Below are positions 18,497-21,305 of a stretch of 64,000 bases of DNA, in pieces. The notes below the pieces were generated by a model. It was given only the letters and a program-made list of their open reading frames with translations. It searched no databases and was not told the DNA's origin. Source of the DNA: Exiguobacterium artemiae 255-15 (GTDB lineage: Bacteria; Bacillota; Bacilli; Exiguobacteriales; Exiguobacteriaceae); assembly GCF_000019905.1 (NCBI RefSeq), contig NC_010556.1:1390001-1454000 (forward strand), written 5' to 3'. Each line of letters begins with the position of its first letter. Within the stretch, counting starts at the first letter, position 1. Position numbers and translations under genes: made by a program.

Positions 18497-19570
18497 TTAT
18501 CTTTTGATCCATTTTGCTCCTCGTCCACGTCCTGACGGTTTTATGAGTCCCTCATCCCGAAGTTCACGCAGAAGCCGATTGATGGTGGCTTCGCTGACAT
18601 CCGGACAGGCATTACGGACATCCGCTTTCGTAAACGGTGTGATTCGGCTTTCGACAAATTGACGAATTCGTCCCGCCTTATTTTGATTGCCGGTCGTAAT
18701 CAGTCCGACCCGATCCTCGAGTTCCTTATACGCGGCAAGGATTGTGCTCAACAGGTAGTTTACCCACGGGAAAGGATCTTGCTGATTCTGATGCCAGTGG
18801 ATAGAGGATAGTCGAAGCGATTCATAATAATCTTCTTTACGCGACTCGACGATCTTTTCCAGACTAATGTACCGTCCAACCTCGAAACCTTCCTGGTAAA
18901 GTAGTAATAGTGTTAATAAGCGTGACATCCGACCATTTCCATCATTGAATGGATGAATCGACAAGAAATCGAGTACAAAGAGGCTCGTCAAGATAAGTGG
19001 ATCGACATCTTCTTGTTGTCGCCGCTCACGCAAACTATCGCATAATGCCTGGACTGAGGCAGGAGTCTCGAATGCCGGCACCGGAACGAAACGTGTTCGT
19101 CGTGTCCCGTCAGGAAAGGATTCACTGATTTCGTTATCGACATTCTTCCATCGTCCACCCTCGACGGGAACGAATTTATAAAGCTCCTTGTGAAGTTGTA
19201 ATAATACGTTCGCATTGATCGGGATATCTCGTGCTGAAGCATGAATTAAATTCAAAACATCTCGGTAACCGGCAATTTCCGCCTCAGAACGGTCGGCGGG
19301 ATCGGCTGATTTCGACATGATGGTATGGAGGCGGCTTTCTGTAACGACAATTCCCTCAATCGCGTTCGATGCTTTTGTCGACTGAATGACAGCTACGTCT
19401 CGTAACGTATCGAGAACTTGAGGAGCCTGTTGTTTATATAAATCTTGTTTTCCTTTATATTCATTGATCCGGCTGATCAAGCGGACTGTTTCCATCGGTA
19501 GTGCAATGGTATTTAAATAACGATACGTATAGTTTCTCACATGTAGCGCCTCTTTCATTAATAGACTCAT
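18497..19570 (-). CDS. Fic-domain AMP-transferase with C-terminal winged helix
   Basis: 357 residues. The Fic motif HPFNDGNGRMSR (206-217) is complete, with catalytic His206, the Asp for metal and the nucleotide-binding Gly/Arg residues. An inhibitory motif S-x3-E-G (Ser68 to Gly73, SNAIEG) lies N-terminal, the class II self-inhibited layout. The last 65 residues (about 290-357) look like a winged helix (FTKADVRNACPDVSEATINRLLRELRDEGLI). Fic enzymes transfer AMP from ATP to target proteins. No clear ribosome site precedes either ATG 19570 or ATG 19558; the upstream DNA is filled by large dyads. No partner antitoxin gene is adjacent. The target is unknown. Confidence 0.92.
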   Translation of the reverse strand: MSLLMKEALHVRNYTYRYLNTIALPMETVRLISRINEYKGKQDLYKQQAPQVLDTLRDVAVIQSTKASNAIEGIVVTESRLHTIMSKSADPADRSEAEIAGYRDVLNLIHASARDIPINANVLLQLHKELYKFVPVEGGRWKNVDNEISESFPDGTRRTRFVPVPAFETPASVQALCDSLRERRQQEDVDPLILTSLFVLDFLSIHPFNDGNGRMSRLLTLLLLYQEGFEVGRYISLEKIVESRKEDYYESLRLSSIHWHQNQQDPFPWVNYLLSTILAAYKELEDRVGLITTGNQNKAGRIRQFVESRITPFTKADVRNACPDVSEATINRLLRELRDEGLIKPSGRGRGAKWIKR

Positions 19571-19578
19571 TGATAGCT

Positions 19579-19800
19579 AAACATATTCATTTATTAAAGA
19601 AATGAATATGTTTAATTAAACTATAACGTATTTAAACGTGTTCAAAAAGAATAAACATACTCATTTTAGGATGAAATGAGTATGTTTATTCAAAAATGAA
19701 CTAATTAATATGGATTTAAAACAGTTAAACATAGTCAAAAACAATTAAAATGAACATGTTTACATGAAAATGAGCTAATTTATGATTTAAACGATTGCAG
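19579..19800. repeat. Three 14-7-14 dyads at exact 74-bp spacing upstream of fic
   Basis: Three dyads share one design of two 14-base arms around a 7-base spacer: 19579-19613 (AAACATATTCATTT arms, perfect), 19653-19687 (AAACATACTCATTT arms, perfect) and 19727-19761 (AAACATAGTCAAAA with AAATGAACATGTTT, imperfect). Their starts are 74 bp apart in both intervals, and the spacers are related (AAAATGARCTAATT recurs at about 19694 and 19767), so this looks like a decayed 74-bp tandem repeat. A further half-site AAACGTGTTCAAAA lies at 19634-19647. The first dyad ends nine bases before the fic ATG. Operators for the Fic winged helix are one reading; RNA hairpins are another. Confidence 0.85.
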
Positions 19801-19812
19801 CTACTCGTAACG

Positions 19813-21252
19813 TCACAAAATCGGTGACAACAGACGCGAGATACTTTCTTTAAAGCGGATCATCCGCGGACGGGCGGCGTATTTTTCTCGTGTCAGCAAG
19901 GCACTGTCGGCGACGTCCGATAAGAAGAGCAGCTCCAGTTCTTCTGCAATCGCCGCATCGTACAAAATCGCATTCATTTCAAAGTTCAGCCGGAAGCTCC
20001 GGGCATCGATATTCGTCGTCCCGACCGAAGCGATTTTCCCGTCGACGACAATCGTCTTCGCATGCATGAAGCCGATTTCGTACGTGTAGACTTCGGCCCC
20101 GTGTTGAATCAATTCGCCGACTGCCGCGTACGTCGCCCAGTAGACAAAGGGATGGTCCGGTTGATTCGGAATCATGATTTTGAGCGAAACGCCGGAAGCC
20201 AGGGCAATCTGGCAGGCGTCCATGAAACTGGCATCCGGAATGAAGTAGGGCGACTGGATGTAAACCGATTTTTCGGCAGAATGAATCATCTGAATCAGCA
20301 TATTTTTCAAATACTCCGTCTCGGATGTCGGACCGGACGTCACGATTTGAACCGGTACATGATCCGTCGCTGCAGCATGCGGCGGAATCGGTGCGGTCGA
20401 CCAGTCGGTCCGCTCGTTGCTCGCAGCGTCCCAGTCCTGTTCGAAATGAAATTCGAGTTCTTCGACGACCGGACCAAGAACCCGCAGATGGGTATCCCGC
20501 CAGTAGCCGAACTGTTCGTCTTCCCCGAGGTATTCCGATCCGACGTTAAAGCCGCCGATATAGCCGATTTGCCGGTCGATCGTACAGAGTTTCCGGTGAT
20601 TCCGGTTGTTGATGCGCAGGTTGAAGATACCGAGCGGCGACGAGAAGAACGAGCGGACCTCGCCGCCGTCCTGTTTGAACGACGCGAAATCCTTGGCTTT
20701 CAGTTTCCACGAACCGACGGCGTCATACAGAATCCGGACTTTGACGCCGCGCTTGGCCTGTTCGAACAAAGCGTTCAGCAGACGGTCGCCGAGCGGATCA
20801 CGTTTTAAGATAAAATACTGGATATTGATTTCGACTTGCGCGCTTTTAATGTCAGCAAGTAACGTATCGAATTTCTGATGACCGTCGAACAGGCTCCGGA
20901 CGACCGTCGCCTCCGTCAACAGGGCACCTGATGAACGATTCGCCTGAATCAGCTTCCGGTACGGATAAAGTGGTGTATTGGGGGGAATCGCTTCAGCTGC
21001 CTGTTCGGTAAGGTCTTGTTCGCGCGCCAACCGGCGATCTTCCGGCACATGATAAAACGAATCCTGTTTCAAGGAGCGGCCGAACAACAAGTAAATCAAA
21101 AAGCCGATGACCGGCAGGAACAAGAGGATCATCAGCCAGGCCCAGGTTGCACTGACATCGCGCCGCTCAAAAAACAGGATGGCGATTGCTGCTGCAAAGT
21201 TGGCAATCAACACGACATAGAGCAAAATCTTCAGGATTAGGGTATAGTCCAT
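19813..21252 (-). CDS. cls: Cardiolipin synthase
   Basis: 479 residues. Two N-terminal membrane segments (about 4-27 and 36-57), then a phospholipase-D fold with two complete HKD motifs: His219/Lys221/Asp226 and His397/Lys399/Asp404. It joins two phosphatidylglycerol molecules into cardiolipin at the membrane. ATG 21252 is used because GAGGTG lies nine bases before it; an in-frame GTG four codons earlier is part of that site. Monocistronic and convergent to nothing immediate; the fic repeat array lies just beyond its stop. Confidence 0.93.
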   Translation of the reverse strand: MDYTLILKILLYVVLIANFAAAIAILFFERRDVSATWAWLMILLFLPVIGFLIYLLFGRSLKQDSFYHVPEDRRLAREQDLTEQAAEAIPPNTPLYPYRKLIQANRSSGALLTEATVVRSLFDGHQKFDTLLADIKSAQVEINIQYFILKRDPLGDRLLNALFEQAKRGVKVRILYDAVGSWKLKAKDFASFKQDGGEVRSFFSSPLGIFNLRINNRNHRKLCTIDRQIGYIGGFNVGSEYLGEDEQFGYWRDTHLRVLGPVVEELEFHFEQDWDAASNERTDWSTAPIPPHAAATDHVPVQIVTSGPTSETEYLKNMLIQMIHSAEKSVYIQSPYFIPDASFMDACQIALASGVSLKIMIPNQPDHPFVYWATYAAVGELIQHGAEVYTYEIGFMHAKTIVVDGKIASVGTTNIDARSFRLNFEMNAILYDAAIAEELELLFLSDVADSALLTREKYAARPRMIRFKESISRLLSPIL

Positions 21253-21305
21253 CAATACGAACACCTCGTTTTCAGAAAATAGGACTTTGACGGGAGGGGA
21301 ACAGC

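Follow-up and report, generated by a model that had tools for sequence, protein, structure and literature searches.

Inverted-repeat dyads of constant geometry upstream of a class II Fic gene in Exiguobacterium artemiae and its homologs: a probable autoregulatory operator

What do three long inverted repeats, set at equal distances in front of a fic gene, do, and which protein reads them? The question is raised by a locus of Exiguobacterium artemiae 255-15, which we analysed within a window of 64,000 nucleotides (the whole stretch of DNA under study, to which all positions refer). Judging from sequence comparison, we consider it highly probable that a class II Fic protein, encoded by a single gene and having a C-terminal winged-helix-like domain, regulates itself through this array as its operator. 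The features on which the argument draws are the following.

18497-19540, minus strand: fic gene, class II Fic protein of 347 aa, GTG start (Pfam, PADLOC and PDB matches)
18500-18712, minus strand: C-terminal winged-helix-like domain, residues 277-347, the inferred DNA reader
18560-18601, minus strand: predicted recognition helix, residues 314-327, assigned from alignment
18920-18955, minus strand: Fic motif HPFNDGNGRMSR, residues 196-207 (alignment A1, 11 homologs)
19352-19369, minus strand: inhibitory-helix motif SNAIEG, residues 58-63 (alignment A1, 11 homologs)
19549-19555, minus strand: fic ribosome-binding site AAAGAGG, 8 nt from the GTG start
19579-19613, no strand: dyad 1, fic-proximal candidate operator, AAACATATTCA-N13-TGAATATGTTT
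19614-19652, minus strand: spacer 1, promoter-like for fic (TATAGT at 19620-19625, -10-like; TTGAAC at 19640-19645)
19653-19687, no strand: dyad 2, promoter-distal candidate operator, AAACATACTCA-N13-TGAGTATGTTT
19727-19761, no strand: dyad 3, cls-side, imperfect (compared with the fic-less genomes G013 and G004)

The array and its fic gene

The three dyads are 35 bp long each, with two 14-base arms around 7 bases (14-7-14), and follow one another at start-to-start distances of 74 and 74 bp. Their consensus is TAAACATRNTCA-N13-TGANYATGTTTA, and the 14-base arms are fully complementary in dyads 1 and 2 and not in dyad 3. A preliminary description of this DNA had reported three such dyads at 74-bp spacing, two of them perfect, and coordinates and arm pairing bear this out. 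Its further statement, that the intervening DNA is related from unit to unit, receives modest support: spacers 1 and 2 are identical at 21/39 positions (shuffled mean 13.9, 95% point 18), and spacer 2 and the 39 bases past dyad 3 at 17/39 (95% point 17). The window has 8 half-site matches at up to two mismatches, where shuffles average 2.51 (0/100 shuffles reach 8), and the five matches with 0-1 mismatch all lie within the array. An Rfam search at the array gave no match; elsewhere in the window, at 2346-2551, lies an HNH-endonuclease-associated HEARO RNA (Rfam RF02033, 118 bits, E 9.5e-24).

The array sits between cls (19813-21264, minus strand) and fic, which is encoded on the same strand downstream of cls. 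Homologs of the Fic protein align from the GTG at 19538-19540 and not from the upstream ATG at 19570, and AAAGAGG lies 8 nt upstream of this GTG (AAGGGAG or AAAGGAG in orthologs), so fic does have a ribosome site, and about 39 bp separate the end of the array from the gene. The earlier statements that the array ends nine bases before the fic start, which rests on the ATG at 19570, and that it replaces a normal ribosome site are corrected accordingly for the window, and the orthologs likewise have such a site. Within spacer 1, the -10-like TATAGT reads TATAAT in several orthologs, and a TTTAAATACGTTATA-like stretch is conserved in spacer 1 of fic arrays (25-28/39 positions identical, background 21-22). 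The -35 element of the window fic is uncertain because TTGAAC lies only 14 bp from the -10-like box, and a promoter scan called no minus-strand promoter in the window array, the box in spacer 1 included.

The protein matches Pfam Fic PF02661 (1.2e-15) and, over residues 20-344, the PADLOC SoFic model (1.1e-41), and it has a full-length relative in the PDB, 8uqu, the match to which includes the C-terminus. Across the 11 homologs of alignment A1, S58, E62 and G63 of the inhibitory-helix motif are invariant, in agreement with the class II motif (S/T)xxxE(G/N). The Fic motif HxFx[D/N/E]GN[G/K]RxxR is likewise present, with H196, P197, F198, G201, R204 and R207 invariant and D200, N202 and G203 nearly invariant in the same alignment. 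By these motifs the window Fic is a class II protein in which catalytic and inhibitory motifs are both kept. Its C-terminal domain gives weak HTH matches below the Pfam cut-offs (HTH_Crp_2, E 0.0064), and weak matches of this domain recur among the 11 homologs, to DUF7343 in 9/11 and to HTH_Crp_2 in 7/11. Selection on fic is strong, with a dN/dS of 0.035 at a dS of 0.40 against G012, the one genome for which dS was computable (-1 was returned for six other fic genes tried).

Dyads with and without fic in Exiguobacterium and other genera

A close fic ortholog occurs in 6/19 Exiguobacterium genomes (G000, G012, G002, G010, G015 and G016), and dyads lie directly upstream of fic in 6/6 of these. 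In the last four, fic occupies loci other than the cls locus and is still preceded by dyads, each array there having two dyads at a distance of 75 bp that enclose a conserved promoter-like stretch. Upstream of fic genes at least 80% identical, the dyad axis is found 50-55 bp before the start in 11/11 regions, with a second dyad 74-75 bp from the first; the 11 include one sequence twice (L076 and L156) and two dyad-selected regions.

Dyads also occur in genomes without a fic ortholog (G001, G004, G007, G008, G013, G017 and G018). Away from fic, dyads are found at the 3' end of cls with no fic there in G004, G008, G013, G015 and G018 (fic lies elsewhere in G015), before a HAD-hydrolase and NUDIX gene pair in G015, G018 and G007 (L062, L067 and L072; Pfam on the G015 copies), the G015 array of this kind being the one at its cls locus, and as single dyads in G001, G016 and G017. 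The array is therefore not strictly tied to fic, and we reject a strictly fic-only array on account of these orphan dyads in fic-less relatives. The proposed check that the dyad should always lie upstream of fic thus turns out mixed: it precedes fic at several loci, and orphans stand at the 3' end of cls, before HAD-NUDIX genes and in other genera. Taken by itself, the cls-locus array, with fic, the HAD-NUDIX pair or neither as its neighbour, looks like a junction for exchangeable genes.

Among relatives that have fic at the cls locus, G012 is the closest, and its cls-side dyad is identical at 35/35 positions to that of the fic-less G013 and G004, so that the window array is probably composed of two fic dyads and one cls-locus dyad. 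Window dyad 3 agrees with the cls-3'-end dyad of G013 and G004 at 30/35 positions and is, on this comparison, probably part of the cls locus and not of the fic unit. We infer that a crossover within dyad 2, with a fic array and a cls-locus array as partners, may have given rise to the window array; the idea is supported by G012 dyad 3 and not by spacer 2, which agrees with both at 20-24/39 positions.

Two other elements were seen in the genus. A different palindrome, AAACGTTTTCATTTGAAATGTAAATGAAATTTTTT, which surfaced as a 3-mismatch match, recurs in G006, G010, G011 and G017 (e.g. G010:C8:100948). In E. qingdaonense (L101 156) and E. sp. s48 (L104 5835), dyads and further half-sites lie near a gene of 134-136 aa (MNEWEKWIPLESM...), for which no Pfam match was found.

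Across bacteria, one genome per species (84,980 species) was scanned with the pattern AAACATNNTCA-N13-TGANNATGTTT, which yielded 66 stretches with a dyad, 15/66 of them inside reading frames and chance-like. By BLASTP, 16/66 adjoin a Fic homolog: five in Exiguobacterium and the others in Psychrobacillus, Gracilibacillus, Lysinibacillus, Clostridium, Halanaerobium, Halanaerobacter, Oceanirhabdus, Syntrophomonas and two MAGs. Whole-genome searches of dyad-holding genomes chosen from the scan found a Fic homolog in 10/19, the other 9/19 carrying orphan dyads. The dyads of C. drakei follow a gene 86% identical to the gene that precedes the C. carboxidivorans fic array and, from this likeness, look as if fic had been lost or gained beside them. 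On viral contigs, 10 stretches carry the pattern, 9/10 inside reading frames, and none lies beside a Fic-motif protein or a BLASTP match.

Several of the stretches have settings of their own. In Oceanirhabdus seepicola (L105 4219-4602), two dyads 64 bp apart lie directly upstream of an ORF for a C-terminal Fic remnant, which keeps only Fic residues ~245-356 (numbering of the ATG-started protein) and is possibly a Fic-less stand-alone repressor or a decayed gene. A single conserved dyad precedes the gene of a 557-aa DUF2207 membrane protein in Jeotgalibacillus (L094 7164 and L139 5319), and the L094 genome has no Fic homolog at E 1e-20. Orphan dyads also lie within repeated blocks in Halanaerobium congolense (L090), with similar flanks in L106, L122 and L138; L090 holds long TCGTATAACG...TTATACGA inverted repeats, which look like an integron cassette array.

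Constant geometry and changing arms among Fic homologs

Homologs were gathered by protein and not by dyad, from the genus and the class Bacilli, the class Clostridia, Gammaproteobacteria and plasmids, at E limits of 1e-3 (genus), 1e-40 (Bacilli and plasmids), 1e-60 (Gammaproteobacteria) and 1e-80 (Clostridia). The plasmids are represented by 7/11 records; 2/90 loci were dropped as duplicates and 5/88 as partial matches, and 12 dyad-selected homologs were counted apart. A blind palindrome search upstream of the homologs found many palindromes with different letters in the same layout. The arm types include TAATATATATCAT-N11-ATGATATATATTA, CAATTTAGTCA-N13-TGACTAAATTG, TTCTCGTCA-N13-TGACGAGAA and TTCCCTTA arms, together with a GGGTA type in Gammaproteobacteria and CTTGATCA-N12-TGATCAAG on a Lactobacillus plasmid.

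Under an operator rule of at least 10/11 pairs and a gap of 7-17, an inverted repeat precedes 62/84 unselected homologs, against 9/252 shuffles and 9/167 coding stretches, and at 11/11 pairs it precedes 41/84, against 1/252 and 0/167; these homolog counts are not independent, because the homologs are related. Such palindromes are no rarity upstream of other genes; the upstream regions of these are the fairest control and give 37/241 at 10/11 pairs and 13/241 at 11/11 (241 genes after dropping 9/250 that carry the dyad). Two distant Fic proteins, L009 and L010, were not picked up by the motif filter and do not contribute to the controls. The rule is passed by 20/25 homologs in Exiguobacterium and Bacilli, 35/46 in Clostridia, 3/6 in Gammaproteobacteria and 4/7 on plasmids; nine homologs at least 80% identical all pass, 53/75 pass without them, and so do 11/12 of the dyad-selected ones. 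No operator was found by the rule in 22/84 unselected homologs, including 3/6 Gammaproteobacteria. Failures include L161 (58% identical), L168, L170 and L171 (Bacilli) and L173 (the most distant), and L168, L170 and L171 have a similar C-terminal domain yet no operator by the rule. The concern that homologous fic genes keep the protein and lack the array hence applies to this minority, most homologs keeping an operator.

Geometry is held tightly. Searching for TCA-Nn-TGA with at least 7/8 outer pairs in 83 homologs (12/83 dyad-selected) returned n=13 (26), n=12 (7), n=33 (3), n=34 (2) and n=31 (1), all other values of n between 0 and 40 being absent, with 1/244 coding chunks and 0/61 far-upstream regions as controls. 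The second peak, at n=33-34, comes from Clostridia homologs such as L197 and suggests that one clade has an additional half-site two turns, or about 20-21 bp, past the dyad. At least two dyads precede fic in 19/25 regions, which are partly related and partly dyad-selected, and the 21 spacings measure 64-65, 73-75 or 103 bp, all deviating by no more than 0.2 from an integral number of 10.5-bp turns.

The letters of the arms change with the predicted recognition helix. Arms of type AAACATANTCA go with SEATINRLLREL, TTCTCGTCA with SASTVERHLKKL, TTCCCTTA with S(I/V/L)SS(I/V)EG(A/S)LRK, TATATATCAT with (S/A)RPT(I/V)(S/T)RTL, and GGGTA-type arms with RDM(I/V)R. In a partial Mantel test, which runs liberal with related sequences, operator distance correlates with helix distance given the Fic core (r 0.289, reached by 0/2000 permutations) and less with the rest of the domain given the same core (r 0.079, 58/2000 permutations); the set comprises the 51/78 homologs with a clear operator (27/78 dropped), the 78 including dyad-selected ones. 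The residues that best track the operator letters are 322, 288 and 319, two of which lie in the predicted helix. These comparisons strongly support a joint change of arm letters and predicted DNA-reading helix at constant geometry.

Two of the other arm types were also searched for in whole genomes, in searches that mostly return the genes from which the patterns came and are not independent of them. The TTCTCGTNA pattern occurs at 6 places in 391 Clostridia genomes (4 source fic genes, 1 further fic and 1 terminator-like site), and the TATATATCAT pattern at 2 places in 299 Bacilli genomes, both source fic genes. Over the 690 genomes, the two patterns together occur 8 times, at 6 source genes, 1 fic gene beyond these and 1 terminator-like site, so that these operators are hardly seen except before fic.

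A candidate mechanism, its rivals and its known relatives

Since fic is preceded by dyads at unrelated loci, and different helices go with different arms at the same spacing, self-reading is strongly supported by comparison. The claim that Fic reads its own promoter array through its C-terminal domain thus gains from the other loci and orders and from the agreement of arms and helix, and the orphan dyads count against it. The dyads themselves have the look of protein sites. In 24 dyads from 11 close fic regions (one region counted twice, two dyad-selected), the half-site TAAACATRNTCA is kept in 21-24/24 at each fixed position, and variation is free at most positions of the spacer. At the half-site's two variable positions, the bases pair in 12/24 dyads, and the half-sites are identical in 7/24. 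Fixed half-sites whose variable positions are unpaired in half of the dyads fit a protein that reads double-stranded half-sites, and not a hairpin. In 41/62 operators a -10-like hexamer is found no more than 9 bp from the axis, against a mononucleotide shuffle mean of 14.5, and most often 4 bp downstream of it (24 hexamers at +4), which makes autorepression, by covering the promoter, the likely role. In Exiguobacterium, the -10-like box stands beside dyad 1, between the two fic dyads, and not inside a dyad.

We infer binding, dimerisation, repression and cooperativity, as well as any link to AMPylation state, from this pattern. A Fic dimer would place its two recognition helices on two facing half-sites TAAACATRNTCA, 24 bp apart from centre to centre. 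The fic promoter would be bracketed by the two dyads specific to fic, the axis of the first lying about 55 bp before the gene and the second 74 bp further up, and two dimers on the same face of the DNA, possibly touching each other, would shut this promoter off. When the Fic protein falls in amount or leaves the DNA, fic would be transcribed. The third dyad was probably already at the 3' end of cls and joined the array when the fic unit arrived.

Another host-encoded regulator might bind the dyads instead, with fic and the HAD-NUDIX pair as its targets and Fic as no binder. It would account for the dyads at the 3' end of cls and before HAD-NUDIX genes in Exiguobacterium without a fic ortholog, and for those before the DUF2207 gene in two Jeotgalibacillus and near the 134-136-aa gene in two Exiguobacterium. 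We regard such a regulator as improbable, since the dyad travels with fic to different loci, a plasmid and several orders, the arm letters track the recognition helix of Fic, and two other arm types stand almost only before fic.

A dispersed or mobile repeat (a MITE or a recombination site), with fic beside it by chance, is very improbable. Orphan copies exist, one G012 dyad is identical to the dyad of fic-less genomes, a repeated block of Halanaerobium contains two copies at a distance of 1,415 bp, and the neighbour of the cls-locus array varies between fic, HAD-NUDIX and neither. However, instead of the many copies at unrelated loci of one genome that would mark a MITE or REP family, a possibility raised in the preliminary description, the 3.04-Mb genome has the dyad pattern at 2 places with 0 mismatches and at 3 places with up to three, all in this array, and we reject a dispersed repeat on this count. 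The arms, moreover, differ completely between clades at constant geometry, which a copied repeat would not do. RNA hairpins, acting as cls terminators or fic leader structures, are scarcely credible and were rejected: cls does end just upstream on the same strand and dyad 2 was called terminator-like (18 pairs, T-rich tail), but its stem has only 4 G-C pairs, the same geometry precedes fic far from cls, the variable half-site positions often fail to pair, as given above, and the -10-like boxes inside operators would, if used, keep those dyads from being transcribed whole.

The autoregulatory operator that we favour has a described counterpart. CccR of Yersinia pseudotuberculosis (PDB 7XUX) is a FIC-HTH T6SS effector and autorepressor, which represses its own gene through a footprinted inverted repeat, AGATAATCAT-N26-ATGATAATCT, according to the available text of PMC9755527. 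As described there, it shares with the window Fic the class II type, the N-terminal inhibitory motif and an inverted repeat in its own promoter, a feature found here in the three window dyads and in 62/84 unselected homologs; CccR is also a dimer with a C-terminal HTH, as the window Fic is predicted to be. Its half-site AGATAATCAT ends in TCAT facing the axis, as does the window half-site, read (A)CATANTCAT. In contrast, the CccR repeats stand 26 bp apart and TCAT and ATGA here 11 bp apart, 15 bp less, so that the window array resembles the CccR operator in its core and not in its spacing. The portion of PMC9755527 at hand describes one operator, mentions no paired dyads and presents CccR as a secreted effector, and the match of the window Fic to 7xux is partial and weak (E 2.4e-6, residues 153-276). 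The earlier view that no Fic operator of this form had been described was therefore too strong: the CccR operator is known, although its form is another. In our literature search, outside of which lay subscription papers and preprints, CccR was the only autoregulatory Fic operator among the matches listed, and no family-wide Fic operator was found.

Two other groups of class II Fic proteins are comparable. CbFic2 of Coxiella burnetii has a C-terminal HTH, which binds DNA in assays that used random DNA; it is a host-directed effector, for which the available text of PMC10628234 gives no defined operator. Its authors propose in the same text that DNA binding shifts the monomeric AMPylase to a deAMPylating dimer. 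Examples of SoFic are Shewanella PDB 3EQX and E. coli Sofic, the latter being anti-phage according to the accessible part of PMC12249575, and according to the accessible part of PMC10628234 no SoFic had, up to 2023, been demonstrated to bind DNA. The window protein shares the class II architecture with this anti-phage family, and its kinship is a sequence-model match (PADLOC SoFic, 1.1e-41). In Phd-Doc-type operons, a toxin-like enzyme gene is repressed from its own promoter, and the antitoxin binds the DNA. Here, by contrast, one protein would be enzyme, its own inhibitor (through the inhibitory helix) and repressor. An analogy to autoregulated toxin-antitoxin operons is drawn in the part of PMC2686095 that was available.

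By analogy with the proposal for CbFic2, a wider and rather doubtful reading, to be taken as a whole, would make the operator an off-switch as well. The DNA-bound dimer would be inactive or deAMPylating, protein and array would be toxin, antitoxin and sensor together, and the enzyme would be released, and its gene derepressed at the same moment, by loss or modification of the DNA, by a change in ATP or by phage attack. As further parts of this tentative reading, incoming fic units would use orphan arrays for parking or recombination, joining there through the homology of the operators, and the Fic family would form a natural readable code between recognition helix and operator.

What is new about the proposed autoregulatory operator is that it extends from CccR, a single characterised effector, to a broad family with operators of its own. 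Constant geometry, together with arms that depend on the helix, would make the cognate sites of many Fic enzymes predictable from sequence. A family-wide operator would give a direct handle on when Fic enzymes are expressed, would suggest that SoFic-like enzymes encoded by single genes need no partner to regulate themselves, and would provide a natural set of variants from which a protein-DNA recognition code could be read.
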